A DNA stretch of 10,201 nt, from the NCBI GenBank assembly GCA_016209155.1, contig JACQWU010000060.1, positions 1 to 10,201 on the forward strand, in the 5' to 3' direction. The notes below the pieces were generated by a model, which was not told the DNA's origin, did no database searches, and was given only the letters and a program-made list of their open reading frames with translations. Shown in pieces: positions 3,511 to 10,201 of this stretch (its first letter is position 1; every line of letters begins with the position of its first letter). The stretch is from Candidatus Desantisiibacteriota bacterium. GTDB lineage: Bacteria > JACRDZ01. The position numbers and the translations under genes were made by a program.

Positions 3511-4068
3511 TCATACCTGTTCAATTTTTATGGCTTTTGTAGGACAAATATAAGCGCATGCGCCGCAGCCGATGCAAGTGTCTGAAATTTTATCAAATGG
3601 GGTTTGAACTTTTTTTCTTGTTCCTCTGCCTGCAAAACTTATTGCGCTCATACCAACTACCTCAGCGCAAACCCGAACGCATAATCCGCACAATATGCAA
3701 TCTGTTCTGGTTCCAAGATTAATACGTGTTTTGTTTACACCGTATTCTTCAGCAATTAATTTGATTTTTTCCGAATCCGGATTTCCGGCAAGGAGAAGTT
3801 CTATAACAATTTTTCGCGCTTTTTTAACTCTTTCGGTATCTGTTTTTACAATCAAGCCTTCAGTAACTTTATAAAGACACGCCGCATGAAGACCAATTCT
3901 GCCGCCTCCTGCTATTTCAACCAGACAAAGTCTGCATGCTCCATAGGGACTTAATTCTTTATTATAACATAAAGTCGGAATTTTTATACCGGAGGCAAAC
4001 GCCGCCTCAAGTATTGTTTTTCCATTTTCAACTTCTAATTCTCTGTCATTAATAATAAATTTAATCAT
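3511..4068 (-). CDS. HoxU/NuoG N-terminus-like iron-sulfur subunit of an NADH diaphorase
   Basis: This 185-residue soluble protein has three parts. An N-terminal [2Fe-2S] plant-type ferredoxin domain uses C34, C45, C48 and C64 (PTLCYNKELSPYGACRLC...AAC). A linker follows at about residues 70-120. The C-terminus has two [4Fe-4S] motifs, CILCGLCVRVC (124-134) and CIGCGACAYICP (165-176). This matches the N-terminal part of NuoG, HoxU and the electron-transfer region of HydA/HndD. It has no [FeFe]-hydrogenase domain and lacks the His-Cys3 motif expected between the ferredoxin and the [4Fe-4S] pair; that position reads LLLAGNPDSEKIKLIAEEYG. It probably passes electrons between the NuoF-like flavin subunit and an unidentified partner. 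ATG at 4068 with GAGGT 5 bases upstream. It is the last gene of the operon. Confidence 0.85.
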   Translation of the reverse strand: MIKFIINDRELEVENGKTILEAAFASGIKIPTLCYNKELSPYGACRLCLVEIAGGGRIGLHAACLYKVTEGLIVKTDTERVKKARKIVIELLLAGNPDSEKIKLIAEEYGVNKTRINLGTRTDCILCGLCVRVCAEVVGMSAISFAGRGTRKKVQTPFDKISDTCIGCGACAYICPTKAIKIEQV

Positions 4069-4085
4069 AGAAACCTCGGGAAATG

Positions 4086-4145
4086 CAGGCGTTTAGGCTG
4101 AAGGCTGAAGAAAAATAGTCTAAAATCCTTCAGTCTATCCACCTG
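4086..4145. repeat. Palindromic dispersed repeat, copy B (60 bp)
   Basis: The left end, CAGGCGTTTAG then GCTGAAGGCTGAAG (4086-4110), is the inverted partner of the right end, which reads on the minus strand from 4145 CAGGTGGATAG then ACTGAAGGATTTTAGA. Its ends match copy A (49-150) but the interior is shorter. It fills nearly the whole gap between the NuoF-like stop (4151) and the ferredoxin-like start (4068), so the operon mRNA would carry this hairpin there. Confidence 0.7.
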
Positions 4146-4150
4146 AATTA

Positions 4151-6019
4151 TTAATCCACACTAACAGCTTTAAATTTACATACTTCTTTGCACATTCCGC
4201 ATTTGATACAGGTATTCTGATCAATCTTATGTAATTGCTTTTTATCTCCGGAAATTGCTTTTACGGGACATTTTATTGCGCATAAGGTGCATCCGGTGCA
4301 TTTACTTTCAAGAATATGATATTTTATTAAAGCCTTACATACTTTTGCCGGGCATTTTTTATTTATATGCTCTTTATATTCATCTTTAAAATAATGCAAA
4401 GTACTTAATACCGGATTTGGCAGAGTCTGCCCTAATCCGCACATTGAGGCATCTTTAATGGCATGACTTAATTCTTCCATAAATTCAAGGTCAGATTCCT
4501 CTCCTTCGCCTCTTGTTATTTTCTCAAGAATTCCAAGTAAAGCAGATGCTCCATCTCTGCAGGATGTGCATTTGCCGCAGGATTCATCAGCTGTAAATTC
4601 AATGAAATATTTTGCCACATCCACCATACAGGTATCTTCATCCATAACAATCATTCCGCCGGAACCCATTATAGCCCCTGCTTCAGCTAATCTTTCATAA
4701 TCCACAGGTAAATTAATTAATTCGGAAGGAATACACCCGCCCGAAGGCCCGCCTGTCTGTACTGCTTTAAATTTTTTATTATCAGGGATCCCTCCGCCTA
4801 TATCATAAATAATCTCTTTAAGAGTAATTCCCATCGGCACTTCTATCAAACCTGTATTTGTAATTTTACCTACAAGTGAAAATATTTTTGTCCCTTTACT
4901 CTTTTCTGATCCAATTTTATAAAACCATTCAGCTCCATAATTAATAATTTTTGGAACAGTTGCCCATGTTTCAACATTATTTATACATGTCGGCATACCC
5001 CATACTCCTTTTTGCACCGGAAATGGAGGCCTCATTCTGGGTTCAGGATAACGTCCTTCAATGGAGGCTATTAATGATGTTTCTTCACCGCATACAAATG
5101 CTCCCGCTCCCTGCTTAATAGAAATATCAAAACTAAAACCGGTATTAAAAATGTTTTCTCCAATAAGTCCGTATTCTCTTGCCTGTTCAATCGCAGTACT
5201 CAGTCTTTCTCTGGCAAGAGGATATTCTGTCCTTATATATACATAACCTTCTTTTGCACCTATTGCTATTGCGCCAATAAGCATACCTTCCAAAACCGCA
5301 TGCGGATCGAGTTCAATAATACTCCTGTCCATATAGGCACCCGGATCTCCTTCATCAGCATTGCAAATAATATATTTAACATCACCGGGGGAATTTCTGC
5401 ATGATTCCCATTTTAAACCTGTCGGAAATCCGGCACCTCCCCTGCCCCTCAAAGAAGATTTTTTTATTTCATTTATAATTTCCTCAGATTTCATTTTTGT
5501 AAGAGCTTTTGCGAATGCTTTATAACCGTCTCTTGCTATGTATTCATCAATTTTTTCAGGATCGATAAGGCCTCTGTTCCTTAATACAATCAGAGTCTGA
5601 TTAGCAAAAAAATTAATATCCTTTAAATAGGGAATCCCATCACCTAAAGAATTCTGCCGATGCATAAATTTCTTAACAGGTCTTTTATTTATAAAATGTT
5701 CTTCCACTAAAAAAGGGATATCCGCTTCGGTTAAATTTTCATAAAATATACCATCCGGCAAAACTGTCATTACCGGACCTACCGCGCAAAAACCATTACA
5801 GCCTGTAATTACAACATGAATTTTTTCTTCCAATCCGTGTTTTTTAATCTCACGGTCTAATGCTTCTTTAACCCTGGAAGATTTATTAGAAATACATCCC
5901 GTCCCCGCGCATAACATTAAGTGAAAAATTCCGCTTCCAATTCCATCCCCTTCACGCAGAAGCATTGTTTTTTTTAATTTATCACTGATTTTATCTAAAT
6001 CTTCAATGGTTAATTTCAC
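4151..6019 (-). CDS. nuoF: NuoF/HndC/HydB-like NADH-binding flavin and iron-sulfur subunit
   Basis: The protein has 622 residues. Domains in order: a thioredoxin-like [2Fe-2S] domain (C37, C42, C74, C78); the NADH/FMN domain with RGRGGAGFPTGLKWE (191-205), ADEGDPGAYMDR (221-232) and GAGAFVCGEETSL (304-316); an SLBB segment; the N3-type [4Fe-4S] site ESCGKCTSCRDG (C481, C484, C487, with C527); and a C-terminal ferredoxin with CTGCTLCAIKCP (574-585) and CIKCGMCKEVC (604-614). This extended layout is typical of HydB/HndC of electron-bifurcating or NAD(P)-linked hydrogenases rather than respiratory NuoF. It oxidises NADH, or reduces NAD+, and moves electrons to Fe-S clusters. Start is the GTG at 6019, with AAAGG 8 bases upstream. 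All cofactor residues look intact. A palindrome lies between it and the NuoE-like gene. Confidence 0.93.
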   Translation of the reverse strand: MKLTIEDLDKISDKLKKTMLLREGDGIGSGIFHLMLCAGTGCISNKSSRVKEALDREIKKHGLEEKIHVVITGCNGFCAVGPVMTVLPDGIFYENLTEADIPFLVEEHFINKRPVKKFMHRQNSLGDGIPYLKDINFFANQTLIVLRNRGLIDPEKIDEYIARDGYKAFAKALTKMKSEEIINEIKKSSLRGRGGAGFPTGLKWESCRNSPGDVKYIICNADEGDPGAYMDRSIIELDPHAVLEGMLIGAIAIGAKEGYVYIRTEYPLARERLSTAIEQAREYGLIGENIFNTGFSFDISIKQGAGAFVCGEETSLIASIEGRYPEPRMRPPFPVQKGVWGMPTCINNVETWATVPKIINYGAEWFYKIGSEKSKGTKIFSLVGKITNTGLIEVPMGITLKEIIYDIGGGIPDNKKFKAVQTGGPSGGCIPSELINLPVDYERLAEAGAIMGSGGMIVMDEDTCMVDVAKYFIEFTADESCGKCTSCRDGASALLGILEKITRGEGEESDLEFMEELSHAIKDASMCGLGQTLPNPVLSTLHYFKDEYKEHINKKCPAKVCKALIKYHILESKCTGCTLCAIKCPVKAISGDKKQLHKIDQNTCIKCGMCKEVCKFKAVSVD

Positions 6020-6039
6020 AAATTAAACCTTTCACTATA

Positions 6040-6059
6040 AGACGCATTGCAATGCGTCT
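6040..6059. repeat. Perfect 20-bp palindrome between nuoE-like and nuoF-like genes
   Basis: AGACGCATTGCAATGCGTCT is fully self-complementary, with near-symmetric TATA flanks (ACTATA on the left, CTATAAA on the right). It resembles a GAGACGC...GCGTCTC palindrome family that I recall as dispersed in environmental genomes. In the mRNA it would form a hairpin about 20 bases upstream of the GTG of the NuoF-like gene, leaving AAAGG free. It has no T tract after it on the minus strand, so it is unlikely to terminate transcription. Confidence 0.7.
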
Positions 6060-6075
6060 CTATAAAAATTTTAAA

Positions 6076-6651
6076 TTAAATGCTCGTTGTAATACCGGAT
6101 TTTATTTTTTCTATTAATTCTACCGATTTCTTTCTATCAACAAAACCATGTATATCTTCATTTATTTTCATTACAGGCGCAATTCCACAGCAGCCGAGGC
6201 ATCTGACTCCCAATAGAGTAAAAAGCATATCTTCTGTCGTCTCACCCATTTTTATTCCCAGTGTAGTTTCCAGAGTTGAAAGAAGATTAAACGAACCTTT
6301 TACATGACAGGCTGTTCCGGTGCAAATATTTATTACATATTTGCCCTTTGGGACTAAACTGAAAGCATTATAAAAAGTTGCAACTCCATAAACATTGCTT
6401 AATGGCATTTTTAAATTAAGAGAAATATTTTTTAAAACAGGTTCGGGTAAATAATTAAAATGAGCATTAGTAGTTTGCAAAAGTGGAATTAAAGCTCCTT
6501 TTGTATTTATATATATATTTATTATTTCCGATGTTTTTAGGGTATCCTCATTAGATAATACGGCCTGTTTTTTTGCGGGAATATTATATTTTTGACCTGA
6601 AACTCTAAATTTCCATTTCTGATGCGGATTGTAATTATGATTTTCAACCAT
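6076..6651 (-). CDS. nuoE: NuoE/HndA/HydC-like [2Fe-2S] subunit
   Basis: The protein has 191 residues from the ATG at 6651. From about residue 40 it follows the NuoE fold: a helical segment GALIPLLQTTNAHFNYLP, then MPLSNVYGVATFYNAF, and the thioredoxin-like [2Fe-2S] domain with C110 and C115 (CTGTAC) and C151 and C155 (CLGCCGIAP). It partners the NuoF-like subunit and helps pass electrons from NADH to the Fe-S chain. The start is uncertain. The frame is open upstream through nqrE to an ATG at 7020, but that would overlap nqrE by 250 bp in another frame, and the upstream residues (Asn/Arg/Cys-rich) look non-coding. The ATG at 6651 lacks a Shine-Dalgarno sequence and overlaps the nqrF remnant. 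Residues 1-30 match nothing I know, so the original start may have been lost. Confidence 0.85.
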   Translation of the reverse strand: MVENHNYNPHQKWKFRVSGQKYNIPAKKQAVLSNEDTLKTSEIINIYINTKGALIPLLQTTNAHFNYLPEPVLKNISLNLKMPLSNVYGVATFYNAFSLVPKGKYVINICTGTACHVKGSFNLLSTLETTLGIKMGETTEDMLFTLLGVRCLGCCGIAPVMKINEDIHGFVDRKKSVELIEKIKSGITTSI

Positions 6652-6761
6652 TGATTTTATAGTCGTCAAAAAACACCATAAGTAACCAGGAACTTCTCGG
6701 CAATTAGAAGAAATACAGCTATAACTATTAAAATAACATTCATTATAATAATCGGGATCAT
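6644..6761 (-). pseudogene. nqrF: Remnant of nqrF: membrane anchor and possible last codons
   Basis: The ATG at 6761, 6 bases behind AAAGGT and 9 bp behind the nqrE stop, opens a 31-codon frame: MIPIIIMNVILIVIAVFLLI, then AEKFLVTYGVF, and TGA at 6666-6668. Its position, its single helix and the AEKxLV ending match the N-terminal anchor of NqrF. The ferredoxin, FAD and NADH domains (over 300 codons) are absent. In a shifted frame the next codons read VFFDDYKING and TGA at 6644-6646; NqrF proteins commonly end in LFDDFG or similar, so this may be the retained C-terminus. Alternatively it is just frameshifted N-terminal sequence after the T6 run. Either way no functional NqrF is encoded here. 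Confidence 0.6.
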
Positions 6762-6770
6762 TTTTAACCT

Positions 6771-7364
6771 TTATTGCAATGTGATTATTCCTGCAAAACC
6801 CATAAATGCAAAAGCAAGTAAACCTGCGATTATCATTGTTATTCCTGGACCTTGCAGTCCTTTTGGGATATCGCTTATTAAAACCAATTTTTCTTTTATT
6901 GCCGCCATTATTATTATAGCTAATGCCCAGCCGGCACTTGTGCCAAAAGAATAGAAGAGTGTCTGAATAAAAGTATATTTTCTCAAAACCATAAAAAGAC
7001 AGACTGCCAGAACAATACAATTAACAGTAATAAGCGGTAAAAATATACCAAAAGCTGATTGAAGGGGCGGAAAAAATCTTTCGATAATCATTTCTAATAA
7101 TTGCACTGTAGCGGCAATTACAATAATAAATACTAAATATGAAATAATTTCCGCATCAAGCGGTACTAAAATTTTCCAATAAATAGGCCAGTTTATAATA
7201 GCAGTTAATGTAACAACAAAAATAATTGATACTCCCATTCCTGATGCGGTTTTAAGATTCCTGGAAATAACAATAAATGGGCACATGCCTAAAATATAAG
7301 TAAGAGCAATATTATGAGTAAAGATCGATGCAACTAAAATTATTATAGGATTCATTGTATTCAT
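6771..7364 (-). CDS. nqrE: Na+-translocating NADH:quinone reductase subunit E
   Basis: A 197-residue, six-helix inner-membrane protein. It carries the NqrE landmarks TYILGMCPFIVISR (C28), VQLLEMIIERFFPPL (88-101), GIFLPLITVNC (106-116, C116) and GITMIIAGLLAFAFMGFAG near the end. In Nqr, NqrE and NqrD form an inverted pair that holds an intramembrane [2Fe-2S] cluster with four cysteines, one from each half of each subunit; both NqrE cysteines are present. NqrE is preferred to the related RnfA because of its neighbours and length. ATG at 7364, with AAGGA about 7 bases upstream. The next gene, nqrF, is only a remnant, so this subunit may sit in an incomplete or altered complex. Confidence 0.92.
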   Translation of the reverse strand: MNTMNPIIILVASIFTHNIALTYILGMCPFIVISRNLKTASGMGVSIIFVVTLTAIINWPIYWKILVPLDAEIISYLVFIIVIAATVQLLEMIIERFFPPLQSAFGIFLPLITVNCIVLAVCLFMVLRKYTFIQTLFYSFGTSAGWALAIIIMAAIKEKLVLISDIPKGLQGPGITMIIAGLLAFAFMGFAGIITLQ

Positions 7365-7378
7365 GTTAAATTCCTTGT

Positions 7379-7413
7379 TTTGAAATTTGAAATTTCAGAT
7401 CTCAAATCTCAAA
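7379..7413. repeat. AT-rich hairpin between nqrD and nqrE
   Basis: On the transcribed (minus) sense, arm TTTGAGATTTGAGA (7400-7413) pairs with TTTCAAATTTCAAA (7379-7392) over 14 positions, with two G-U wobbles and a 7-base loop. Each arm is itself a 7-bp near-duplication (TTTGAGA twice). It ends 15 bp before the nqrE start codon and fills most of the gap. It could influence mRNA stability or relative subunit levels, or be a dispersed repeat. There is no T tract, so a terminator is unlikely. Confidence 0.55.
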
Positions 7414-7420
7414 TTAGTAT

Positions 7421-8056
7421 TTAAGTATCTGTTTTTTTAGAGATTGTCCTGAAAATCCATAAATAAACACCTAAAAGAAAAAATGCGCCCGGCGCAATTG
7501 TTAAGACTGTCCAGTTTACCCATGAATCCGGCATTATTCTAAAGTCCAGAATTGTACCAAAACCCATAATCTCCCGTACGATTGACATGAGTAAAAGCAT
7601 AAATGTATAGCCTATGCCGCAGCCTAAAGCATCAAGAGCAGAATAAAACGGACTATTATTAATAGCATATGCTTCAGCTCTGCCCATTAATATACAATTT
7701 GTGATAATTAAACCGACATACGGTCCCATTGTTTCACTGATAAGAGGGAAAAAAGCTTTTAGAAATCTATCTACACAAATAACAAAAGTAGCAATAATTG
7801 TCATATAAGCAAGCATTCTTACTCTTCCGGGAATAGTATTTCTAAAAAGTGATATTAACAATGAACTGAAAACCGTACAAAAAGTAACCCCCAGTCCCAT
7901 GGCAATAGCGTTTGCCACTTTATTGGTTATAGCCAGAGATGAACATATTCCAAGCACCATACAGAATATCGGATTATCAAGCCAGATTCCGGAGGCAAAA
8001 ACTTTAAAAGCTTTGCTGTTTTTTATTTCATCAATAATATTTTTTTTATCTGACAT
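7421..8056 (-). CDS. nqrD: Na+-translocating NADH:quinone reductase subunit D
   Basis: A 211-residue, six-helix membrane protein. NqrD signatures are WLDNPIFCMVLGICSSLAIT (25-44), IPGRVRMLAYMTIIATFVI (75-93), GLIITNCILMGRAEAYA (115-131), GYTFMLLLMSIVREIMG and APGAFFLLG. The cysteines in LGIC (C38) and TNC (C121) are the pair that shares an intramembrane [2Fe-2S] cluster with NqrE. It resembles V. cholerae NqrD more than RnfE in the 25-44 and 115-131 blocks. ATG at 8056, with AAGGGTG about 8 bases upstream. The start overlaps the end of the truncated nqrC frame by 11 bp. This overlap is probably new: it arises because nqrC reads through the dispersed repeat. Confidence 0.92.
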   Translation of the reverse strand: MSDKKNIIDEIKNSKAFKVFASGIWLDNPIFCMVLGICSSLAITNKVANAIAMGLGVTFCTVFSSLLISLFRNTIPGRVRMLAYMTIIATFVICVDRFLKAFFPLISETMGPYVGLIITNCILMGRAEAYAINNSPFYSALDALGCGIGYTFMLLLMSIVREIMGFGTILDFRIMPDSWVNWTVLTIAPGAFFLLGVYLWIFRTISKKTDT

Positions 8057-8489
8057 AAAATTTCACCCTTTTACCTTCACCCCAAAAGCCTTCAGCCTTC
8101 AGTCTAATCCTGCCACCAAGACCCGGTGTTTCCTCCTGATAAGTAATTTTAAGCTTACGTATTGTTTTTAAATCCTTTTCCAGGCTTATAATTCCCGATA
8201 TGGGTCCCCATAAGCCCGGTCCATGAAATTCAAAAGCAATACTTTTGTCACTTGCAATGTAAAATGTATGATTGGATTTATTTAATACTTGAATTTGACT
8301 ATTAAATATATCGATAACTTTTGATTTTTCATAAGAAATTTCCAGCGCATCTAATATTGATGATTTCAATTTTAACTCATCATTTTTTGCAATAAAAATT
8401 GAAGTATAGGAATTTACTCCAATAAGTAGAACACCTGAAACTGTTCCCATAATGATCACAAAAATTAATATTCGGAAAGCAGATTTCAC
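8046..8489 (-). CDS. nqrC: NqrC, C-terminally truncated: covalent-FMN region missing
   Basis: The frame encodes 147 residues from a GTG at 8489 with a strong GAGGAGG site 9 bases upstream. It has one N-terminal membrane helix (about 6-27), then periplasmic sequence with the NqrC blocks FEFHGPGLWGPISG (86-99) and TYQEETPGLGGR (116-127). In V. cholerae NqrC, GLGG is followed by roughly 70-80 more residues, including the SGATxT motif whose threonine carries FMN. Here homology stops at residue 127, and residues 128-147 are encoded by a dispersed repeat (8086-8112) plus the nqrD leader. No SGATxT motif is present, so the protein should lack its FMN and probably cannot pass electrons. It may be a recent pseudogene with an open frame, or a structural remnant. 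Confidence 0.82.
   Translation of the reverse strand: MKSAFRILIFVIIMGTVSGVLLIGVNSYTSIFIAKNDELKLKSSILDALEISYEKSKVIDIFNSQIQVLNKSNHTFYIASDKSIAFEFHGPGLWGPISGIISLEKDLKTIRKLKITYQEETPGLGGRIRLKAEGFWGEGKRVKFYVR
8086..8112 (-). repeat. Half copy of the dispersed palindromic repeat inside nqrC (copy C)
   Basis: Read on the minus strand from 8112: CAGGATTAG then ACTGAAGGCTGAAGGCTT. This matches the left end of copy A (CAGGTATTTAGACTGAAGGCTGAAGG) except for a 2-base gap and small changes. It begins exactly where NqrC homology ends (the codons for GGR) and is translated there as RLKAEGF. The opposite inverted end is not recognisable before the nqrD start, so the copy is partial or one-ended. Confidence 0.7.
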
Positions 8490-8503: not shown

Positions 8504-9574
8504 TCATGCTTTATATCTTATTTTTAATACTATCGAATCTATTAACGGTGTAAAGGCATTAACCAGTAAAATACTGAACATTACACCCTCAACATAACCG
8601 GAAAGCCCGCGTATTATAACAGTTAAAAATCCCAAAAGTATTCCGCCAATCCATCTTCCGGGTTTTGTAAACGGACTTGTAACCGGATCAGTAGCCATGA
8701 AAAAATCACCCAGGAGCAGTCCTCCGGAAAAAAGCTGAAATAAAGGAGGTACAAAATTACCAGGGAAAAATGTGTTGCCCAAAAAAGAAAAAATAATTAC
8801 ACTCGAAAGATATGACAAAGGAATACGCCAGTCAGCTATTTTTGTATAAATCAAAAATAAACCTCCTGCGATTAATCCGATACGGAATGTTTCTCCGATA
8901 CAACCGGCGCCGGATCCAAAAAGAAGATCTGTGATGGGAGTTAATATTTTCTGATTTTTAAAAATAACCAATGGAGTAGCCTTAGTTATTGCATCTATCC
9001 CGTTTTGATAGGAAACAAAACCTCCTAATCCGCTTGTTTTAGGTATCTGCCAATTTACTGTCATTATCTCGGGGAAAGAAATACTTAAAAATATTCTGCC
9101 TGCGATTGCCGGATTAAAAATATTTCTGCCGGTGCCGCCAAACACTTCTTTTCCGAATAATACACCGAATATAACACCTGCCGCGACTATCCATAAAGGT
9201 ACAGTCGGAGGCAGGATTAGCGGAAAAATTAAACCAGTAACAAAAAAACCCTCATGTATTTCTTTTTTTCTAATTATGGCAAAACTAACTTCAACTATTG
9301 CTCCGGATAAATAAGAAATAATTATTATCACCAGTACACGTAATCCCCATAAATATATTGATGCGATAACCGCAGGCAAAAGAGCATAAATAACAAATAA
9401 CATAAGTCTTTTAAGATCAATATTATCCGAAACATGAGGGATTACAGATGTTATCTCAGATGTTCCAAAGAATATCTTATCCAATGCTGATGAAATAGGT
9501 TTAAATTTTTTCAACTTTTCATTTTTTTCTATTTTACCGGATAAATTATCTAATTTTTGCTTTAATGATTGCAT
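8504..9574 (-). CDS. nqrB: Na+-translocating NADH:quinone reductase subunit B
   Basis: A 356-residue polytopic membrane protein. It has the NqrB blocks HEGFFVTGLIFPLILPPTVP (107-126), FGKEVFGGTGRNIFNPAIAG (140-159), GGLLLGDFFMATDPVTSP and SGYVEGVMFSILLVNAFTPL near the end. The segment DAITKATPL (194-202) corresponds to SGATPL of V. cholerae NqrB, whose threonine carries covalent FMN; T200 is the equivalent. NqrB is the main membrane subunit for riboflavin and quinone binding and Na+ transport. It is somewhat shorter than V. cholerae NqrB (about 415), mostly at the N-terminus. RnfD is the closest alternative but its neighbours and the EGFFVT/PPT blocks favour NqrB. ATG at 9574 with GAGGGA upstream, 16 bp behind nqrA. 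Its TGA at 8504 abuts the Shine-Dalgarno sequence of nqrC. Confidence 0.93.
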   Translation of the reverse strand: MQSLKQKLDNLSGKIEKNEKLKKFKPISSALDKIFFGTSEITSVIPHVSDNIDLKRLMLFVIYALLPAVIASIYLWGLRVLVIIIISYLSGAIVEVSFAIIRKKEIHEGFFVTGLIFPLILPPTVPLWIVAAGVIFGVLFGKEVFGGTGRNIFNPAIAGRIFLSISFPEIMTVNWQIPKTSGLGGFVSYQNGIDAITKATPLVIFKNQKILTPITDLLFGSGAGCIGETFRIGLIAGGLFLIYTKIADWRIPLSYLSSVIIFSFLGNTFFPGNFVPPLFQLFSGGLLLGDFFMATDPVTSPFTKPGRWIGGILLGFLTVIIRGLSGYVEGVMFSILLVNAFTPLIDSIVLKIRYKA

Positions 9575-9590: not shown

Positions 9591-10201
9591 CTATAACCTT
9601 GTTGCTCCGCGATATTCTTCTATTATCTCAATATCAAAATGAGGAAGATCGCATTGATCTCTGTCACATCCCTGTTTGAGCAGCTTTTCCTGTCCTTCTT
9701 TAATTCTTTCAAACAATGGTATCTTTGACGGACATACGTAGCTGCAGAGACAGCAGTTGATGCAATTGAAAATTTCATATTTTTTAAGTGTCTCGTCAAT
9801 AATACCCTTATTTATGTATTTATATAAAAGATGAGGTATAATTCTCACAGGGCAGACATCTTCACAAAAACCGCATGATATGCATGGCCTTTTTTCCCCA
9901 TGGATATTTGTATCAGGTAATTTATTAAAAACAGGCAGGATTTTTGCAAGAAATGTATTAGTAAAAGAATCACTTTTCTTTCCCGAGCTCAAAAACGGAA
10001 GAAATTCTCTGTCCGTTTTTTCAGGTATGGCAATTATTTGTGAAAATTTTTTATCTATAGGGAATTTAAAATCTTTAAGCTGAAAACCCGTCAGGAGACT
10101 ATTTATTATTATTCTCGATGGGATATTTTCTTTAAGTCTGCCGGAAAGGACTTCGCTTACAGGTGTTCCAAAACGCACTTTCATATGAATATTTTCATTC
10201 A
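9591..10201 (-). CDS. nqrA: NqrA-like subunit, C-terminal part, with two RnfC-like [4Fe-4S] motifs (5' end outside window)
   Basis: The frame is open to the right edge (NENIH before M at 10184), so the ATG at 10184 is probably internal and the gene is cut by the window. About 200 residues are visible, numbered from that M. RFGTPVSEVLSGRL (4-17), INSLLTGF and the DREFLPFL segment (58-65) align with NqrA (GTP..., SGSVLTG, GREREFLGW), a segment RnfC does not have. The region then diverges from V. cholerae NqrA, carrying CISCGFCEDVCP (101-112) and CINCCLCSYVCP (141-152), the paired [4Fe-4S] motifs of RnfC, followed by SKIPLFERIKEG. So the protein combines NqrA and RnfC features. NqrA is the cytoplasmic, quinone-associated subunit; here it could also carry electrons from a soluble donor. 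The stop is 16 bp before nqrB. Confidence 0.85.
   Translation of the reverse strand, partial: NENIHMKVRFGTPVSEVLSGRLKENIPSRIIINSLLTGFQLKDFKFPIDKKFSQIIAIPEKTDREFLPFLSSGKKSDSFTNTFLAKILPVFNKLPDTNIHGEKRPCISCGFCEDVCPVRIIPHLLYKYINKGIIDETLKKYEIFNCINCCLCSYVCPSKIPLFERIKEGQEKLLKQGCDRDQCDLPHFDIEIIEEYRGATRL

Follow-up and report, generated by a model that had tools for sequence, protein, structure and literature searches.

The operon in the window, which is one whole contig of 10,201 bp, probably encodes a membrane complex of hybrid type, for which we use the name Nqr-Bfu. In this complex an Nqr core of subunits A to E would have its NADH input replaced by a Bfu/HydABC-type NADH/FMN module; judged from sequence, we give this reading a probability of about 70%. 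The contig belongs to a metagenome-assembled genome (MAG) of 3.08 Mb in 352 contigs. Every gene of the operon is carried by the minus strand, namely the 3' part of nqrA, nqrB, nqrC, nqrD, nqrE, a 31-codon open reading frame, nuoE, nuoF and a hoxU-like gene (Table 1). This confirmed the series nqrA to nqrE followed by nuoE, nuoF and hoxU-like genes reported in the preliminary description of this DNA, with nqrA present as its 3' part only.

Table 1. Features of the operon in the window
Feature	Position	Strand	Remarks
nqrA-type subunit, 3' part	9591..10199	-	gene cut by contig end; 50% identity to the full-length L035 A subunit
nqrB (RnfD/NqrB family)	8504..9574	-	PF03116, 5e-103; flavinylation-like ITKATP motif
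nqrC, truncated	8046..8489	-	147 aa; lacks C-terminal ~65 residues and [ST]GAT FMN site
nqrD, intact	7421..8056	-	TIGR01939, 8e-65
nqrE, intact	6771..7364	-	TIGR01940, 9e-58; both cluster cysteines present (LGMC, TVNC)
NqrF transmembrane helix remnant, 31 codons	6666..6761	-	translation MIPIIIMNVILIVIAVFLLIAEKFLVTYGVF*; aligned to residues 1-31 of L035
Hybrid linker (FLTTIKSMVENHNYNPHQKWKF) and NuoE [2Fe-2S] domain	6076..6696	-	L035 fusion residues 115-312, E 5.5e-61
nuoF/hydB (BfuB type)	4151..6019	-	TIGR01959, 7e-148; best PDB match 7t2r_B, E 1e-248
hoxU-like (short BfuA/NuoG-type) electron-transfer subunit	3511..4068	-	Fer2_4 and Fer4; no catalytic domain

NqrB, NqrD and NqrE of the window have Nqr/Rnf family scores under the curated NCBIfam Nqr cut-offs (290-307 bits for NqrB), as would be expected of a divergent branch. 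The nuoE product matches Pfam 2Fe-2S_thioredx (PF01257, 1e-47) with conserved cysteines. No nqrF above cut-off was found in the window's genome. Short repeats lie between genes of the operon at 7370-7415 and 6030-6060 (ttgagatttgagat..., palindrome agacgcattgcaatgcgtct), and a lone C-terminal ketopantoate reductase piece (ApbA_C) at 1427-1678 is apparently another gene fragment. The same genome has a separate rnfE-rnfA-rnfB cluster at the start of a contig (L050, 216-2358), and Rnf and the hybrid Nqr may coexist.

The ferredoxin-NuoE fusion and its copy in the window

In relatives of the window operon, one gene of about 318 aa codes for the NqrF transmembrane (TM) helix and [2Fe-2S] ferredoxin domain in direct fusion with NuoE. 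In G001 (locus L035), a 98% complete genome of the window's phylum, nqrA-B-C-D-E is followed by a fusion of 317 aa, nuoF (624 aa) and hoxU (201 aa); the part taken from NqrF corresponds to its residues ~1-130. The N-terminal half of the L035 fusion matches solved NqrF structures (8a1t_F and 7xk3_F) over residues 8-130 with E 1e-20, and its C-terminal half matches HydC (8a6t_C, E 2e-43). Profile TIGR01941 is matched in the fusion relatives only up to positions 124-155 of 405, and the FAD/NADH domain of NqrF is missing from the fused operons. The preliminary description had taken nqrF to be vestigial and nuoE to be a separate gene. The former holds for the window, where a TM remnant is left, but the family keeps the TM helix and the 2Fe-2S domain; the latter had to be abandoned, as nuoE in the relatives is the C-terminal half of a gene starting at the TM helix. 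In the same way, the idea that a soluble module had replaced NqrF stands for the FAD/NADH half and fails for the TM-ferredoxin part, which was retained. Where an intact nqrF was looked for between nqrE and nuoE of relatives, the half-nqrF fused to nuoE was found instead; the result named beforehand as refuting the hybrid did not occur, and what was found supports it.

After the ferredoxin domain, a linker of the form [FY][DN]xxx[KR]WxF is present in all fused and split members and in the window; it is absent from 13 of the 13 canonical NqrFs aligned, and the shared segment may serve for docking or as a joint. In four Desulfobulbales sequences, dN/dS was ~0.02-0.15 in the TM, ferredoxin, linker and NuoE segments, rough values with dS near saturation, and by this measure the fusion was shown to be under purifying selection. 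An AlphaFold model of the fusion, made from 8 sequences, was poor (pLDDT 51). The short NqrF of G082 proved to be canonical, its gene being interrupted by the end of the contig.

In the window copy of the fusion gene, about 92 codons are deleted with a change of frame. The TM helix is followed directly by FLTTIKSMVENHNYNPHQKWKF, a segment aligned with residues 123-144 of L035; the ferredoxin domain is absent and only the TM helix of NqrF is left. A second deletion removes the NqrC C-terminus with its flavinylation site (147 aa vs 190-204 in relatives and 196 in L035). Without the ferredoxin domain and the NqrC flavin site, the window copy as assembled should not work, and because both are gone it is taken to be a pseudo-operon or an assembly artefact. 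A programmed frameshift joining the TM reading frame to NuoE was considered, since a -1 slip is conceivable at the junction GTTTTTTGA, but it would leave the protein without its ferredoxin domain. It is quite possible, even if we lean somewhat against it, that the copy is intact in the cell and that both deletions are assembly errors. The MAG is fragmented and 79% complete, the frames of nqrB, nqrD, nqrE, nuoF and hoxU are full-length with the NuoF ligands retained, and both lesions are simple deletions; a real pseudo-operon, however, would look identical.

The NuoF/HoxU module and the A subunit

For the NuoF of the operon, similarity was greatest to HydB from the bifurcating NiFe-HydABCSL (7t2r_B), and in the window NuoF comprises an N-terminal 2Fe-2S domain, an FMN/NADH domain, the N3 cluster, a His-CPAxxC site and a C-terminal 2x[4Fe-4S] domain. 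The B1-B5 cysteines of 7t2r_B and the His-CPAxxC site are all aligned in the window NuoF, and the B1-B5 cysteines are also complete in L035 and L220. One or two N-terminal (B5) cysteines are missing in L091, L194 and L219; every fused member examined retains those of B1-B4, among them the ligands at the CPAxxC site and in the C-terminal 2x[4Fe-4S] domain. HoxU was compared with BfuA of Type 2, which is without the A3 and A5 clusters; it carries ligand sets for one 2Fe-2S and two [4Fe-4S] clusters and none for a His-ligated cluster, with cluster names assigned from sequence. At L220 a small HATPase gene (anti-sigma/kinase-like, 5518-6036) lies between nuoF and hoxU. An [FeFe]-hydrogenase partner encoded elsewhere in the genome had been considered in the preliminary description. 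PF02906, the H-cluster domain, was found in none of the eight fused-hybrid genomes and in neither of two further genomes of the same phylum, and with 0 of 10 genomes positive a stray hydrogenase module was rejected for the fused type. PF02906 domains do occur in G917, the planctomycete host of the split type.

The nqrA 3' part of the window encodes two complete CxxCxxCxxxC motifs with Fer4 matches, and two such RnfC-like [4Fe-4S] motifs are present in all hybrid A subunits examined. The L035 A subunit scores nearer RnfC than NqrA. The FMN and acidic motifs of RnfC are degenerate or absent in the hybrid A subunits, and an Rnf-like exit to NAD therefore looks unlikely, though there may be another exit. 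Inside the fused clade, some members have an RnfC-like A subunit and others one that resembles NqrA but has an Fe-S tail (L035 6099-7583, L220 12634-14193, L091 3534-4859, L193 7558-8886), so that this subunit seems to have been exchanged. The Fe-S clusters of NqrA had been proposed as the electron receiver; most likely this role falls to the retained NqrF ferredoxin domain, followed by NqrD/E, because the family retains the TM helix of NqrF and its 2Fe-2S domain, joined to NuoE.

Flavinylation of NqrB and NqrC needs ApbE, which is present in 10 of 10 host genomes; the partial ApbE in the window's genome reflects a contig-end cut instead of decay. The NqrC [ST]GAT motif is present in L035, L091, L219 and L220, takes the variant form TAAT in L197 and is absent from the truncated window NqrC. 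Strong UbiE/MenG matches were obtained in 5 of the 10 host genomes, and a quinone acceptor is therefore likely in these and not assured everywhere.

Distribution and phylogeny of the hybrid operons

The order nqrABCDE-nuoE-nuoF-hoxU without the NADH-binding half of nqrF, for which a search of related genomes had been proposed, was indeed found intact in seven other genomes: G001, four Desulfobulbales and two genomes of one Verrucomicrobiota class. The whole operon is intact in G001 (L035), G386 (L091, Desulfofustis), G592 (L193) and G642 (L220), and was followed as far as the contig ends in G578 (L192), G607 (L194) and G648 (L219). The Desulfofustis MAG came from a scan of a genome collection and carries A to E, the fusion, nuoF and hoxU, then the contig end. 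Three more Desulfobulbales genomes with the fusion (81% identity) were found among 242 drawn from the order, and 2 of 288 genomes (L219, L220) from the class of Verrucomicrobia UBA6015 have it. Among 372-386 widely drawn relatives, the intact arrangement occurred in G001 only and canonical nqrF in dozens. The Nqr-Bfu arrangement is rare but recurrent, and nearly all of the host genomes seem to be drafts or metagenome-assembled. G386, G387, G642 and G648 also have a canonical nqr operon, so that the hybrid is an additional enzyme in them. Genes resembling those for CoA-transferase, enoyl-CoA hydratase, acyl-CoA dehydrogenase and a GntR-type protein (named by eye) adjoin the hybrids at L091 (1-2780) and L193 (10295-14733), which suggests that the Desulfobulbales hybrid is linked to acyl-CoA oxidation.

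Unfused versions were found as well. In UBA6015 the TM-ferredoxin (156 aa), NuoE and NuoF are separate genes, and in the Planctomycetaceae MAG G917 nqrE is followed by a TM-ferredoxin (161 aa), a NuoE-NuoF-GltD-like fusion and hoxU. NuoE-NuoF fused to a GltD/NfnB-like flavoprotein domain, seen at L227 (684-4484) downstream of an unfused TM-ferredoxin half of NqrF, is an architecture of its own.

In a tree of NqrD+NqrE (IQ-TREE), the eight fused operons, the window's included, form one clade (UFBoot 100), which falls within the canonical Nqr operons and apart from Rnf. Their branching does not track phyla, which suggests horizontal transfer. The split-type operon of UBA6015 clusters with canonical ones of Verrucomicrobia (UFBoot 100), which indicates that the hybrid arose, or moved by recombination, at least twice. 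The fused operons do not all fall together in the NuoF tree, and NuoF may therefore have been exchanged.

Proposed electron path, alternatives and relation to known systems

In normal Nqr, the tethered ferredoxin of NqrF feeds NqrD/E. In the hybrid, NADH would reduce the FMN in NuoF, and an electron would move via the [2Fe-2S] cluster of NuoE onto the tethered [2Fe-2S] domain of NqrF type and from there by way of NqrD/E, NqrC and NqrB probably to quinone, with coupling to Na+ export. The complex may also co-oxidise (confurcate) NADH and reduced ferredoxin, or run in reverse. Such confurcation or reverse running is the most likely sub-step, although we put it at about even odds, since both NuoF and HoxU have retained the additional clusters by which HydABC serves ferredoxin and a third substrate. 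In HydABCSL the low-potential electron goes from FMN by the HydC C1 cluster and B2 to ferredoxin (PMC8880783). With the NqrF cluster fused to this HydC/NuoE subunit, electrons would enter Nqr next to the site of bifurcation. Schut et al. (PMC9304861) argue that oxidising NADH and ferredoxin together yields enough energy for pumping with menaquinone. The fullest form of the proposal is an undescribed class of electron-confurcating, Na+-translocating NADH/ferredoxin:quinone oxidoreductase, covalently wired through the tethered NqrF ferredoxin, which would have passed horizontally from phylum to phylum and come together on at least two occasions; this combination is tentative, its chances being a little short of even.

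Other readings of these operons are less probable. The module could be only an alternative NADH dehydrogenase, with electrons running from NADH through FMN, NuoE, the NqrF-type ferredoxin and NqrDE to quinone without bifurcation and the extra clusters kept as inherited baggage. The fusion to NuoE would then offer a direct route past the ferredoxin-side clusters, and the incomplete B5 cysteines of some members recall hydrogenases in which incomplete cluster sets accompany loss of bifurcation (PMC11406978). We consider this unlikely, if a serious contender, as the B1-B4 cysteines persist throughout the fused members examined and HoxU is conserved. Still less probable is a flow that is reversed or ends elsewhere, with quinol or the Na+ motive force driving NAD or ferredoxin reduction, or with exit through the A-subunit [4Fe-4S] clusters to another acceptor. 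The two [4Fe-4S] motifs of all hybrid A subunits examined, the RnfC-leaning score of the L035 subunit and the lack of a clear UbiE in some hosts fit such a flow, but the RnfC FMN and acidic motifs are degraded and the D/E phylogeny is that of Nqr, not Rnf.

The view that a decaying nqr operon lies next to an unrelated diaphorase operon by chance draws on the damage to nqrC and the nqrF part in the window itself. It is very unlikely, because the NqrF part and NuoE are fused in one gene. The order is moreover kept in the seven other genomes, of three groups, with split versions in two more, the fusion is under purifying selection, and the ten genomes searched hold no [FeFe]-hydrogenase partner. 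For the family as a whole, the fusion and the synteny across phyla ruled it out.

The Nqr-Bfu complex, as read from its genes, shares with Na+-NQR the gene order A to E, the cluster cysteines of NqrD/E, the flavinylation motifs of NqrB and NqrC (for NqrC, in intact relatives), the NqrF TM helix and 2Fe-2S domain, and the phylogenetic position of D+E. It differs in an NqrF without FAD/NADH domain that is fused to NuoE, in the addition of NuoF and HoxU, and in the two [4Fe-4S] motifs of its A subunit, where canonical NqrA has none. With HydABC and NiFe-HydABCSL (7t2r, 7p5h, 8a6t) it has the NuoF and NuoE subunits and clusters in common; in contrast, the hybrid operon has no H-cluster or NiFe subunit, and PF02906 is absent from the fused-hybrid genomes. 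Bfu modules are described as driving proton pumps in Nuo-Bfu and Mbh-Bfu (Schut et al. 2022, PMC9304861). Like these, the hybrid has a BfuB-type NuoF with the B1-B5 ligand set, NuoE (BfuC), a short HoxU-like BfuA and, to go by the genes, an ion-pumping membrane complex as partner. That partner is Nqr, a Na+ pump, instead of complex I or Mbh, and it is connected by a BfuC that is fused to a TM ferredoxin. Nqr-Bfu parallels Nuo-Bfu, where complex I has a Bfu module in place of its NADH module.

The term Nqr does not occur in the text of Schut et al. 2022 (PMC9304861), a term search of the Rnf/Nqr reviews PMC12174285 and PMC4014512 returned no mention of such a hybrid, and no prior report was found in the open literature, subscription literature being outside that search. 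The closest description is a Bfu-type variant of Nqr, not described in the open literature searched. To our knowledge, Nqr and complex I/bifurcating dehydrogenases have been treated as unrelated solutions for NADH entry. The natural fusion shows that the NADH module of the sodium pump is exchangeable and lends support to the view that NqrD/E receive their electrons from the tethered ferredoxin domain alone. Such a swap points to a new way of powering a sodium pump and to a route by which anaerobes could feed electrons of ferredoxin into a respiratory chain that pumps Na+, and the ready-made chimera makes electron input to Nqr testable.

With Rnf (RnfCDGEAB), the hybrid shares a homologous core, the RnfC-like Fe-S tail on the A subunit and an input subunit encoded after an A/E-type gene; it differs in operons without RnfB, in an A subunit without a clear FMN/NAD motif and in a core that falls in the Nqr clade. 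The hybrid may bear on the evolution of Nqr from Rnf, through loss of RnfB and gain of a gene for a new input subunit.

Variants of other kinds were seen among the operons compared. G004 (L036, 8633-10081) combines a canonical nqrF with an RnfC-like A subunit that scores above the rnfC cut-off; it takes a basal position in Nqr and is a possible Rnf/Nqr intermediate. In nqrBCDEF operons where BLAST detected no nqrA, a conserved protein of ~150 aa follows (L037 10678-11148, L196 6043-6510, L198 9066-9521, L221 4206-4658). This protein gave no Pfam match in the two cases tested (L198, L221), and these operons possibly encode an Nqr variant with a different A subunit.
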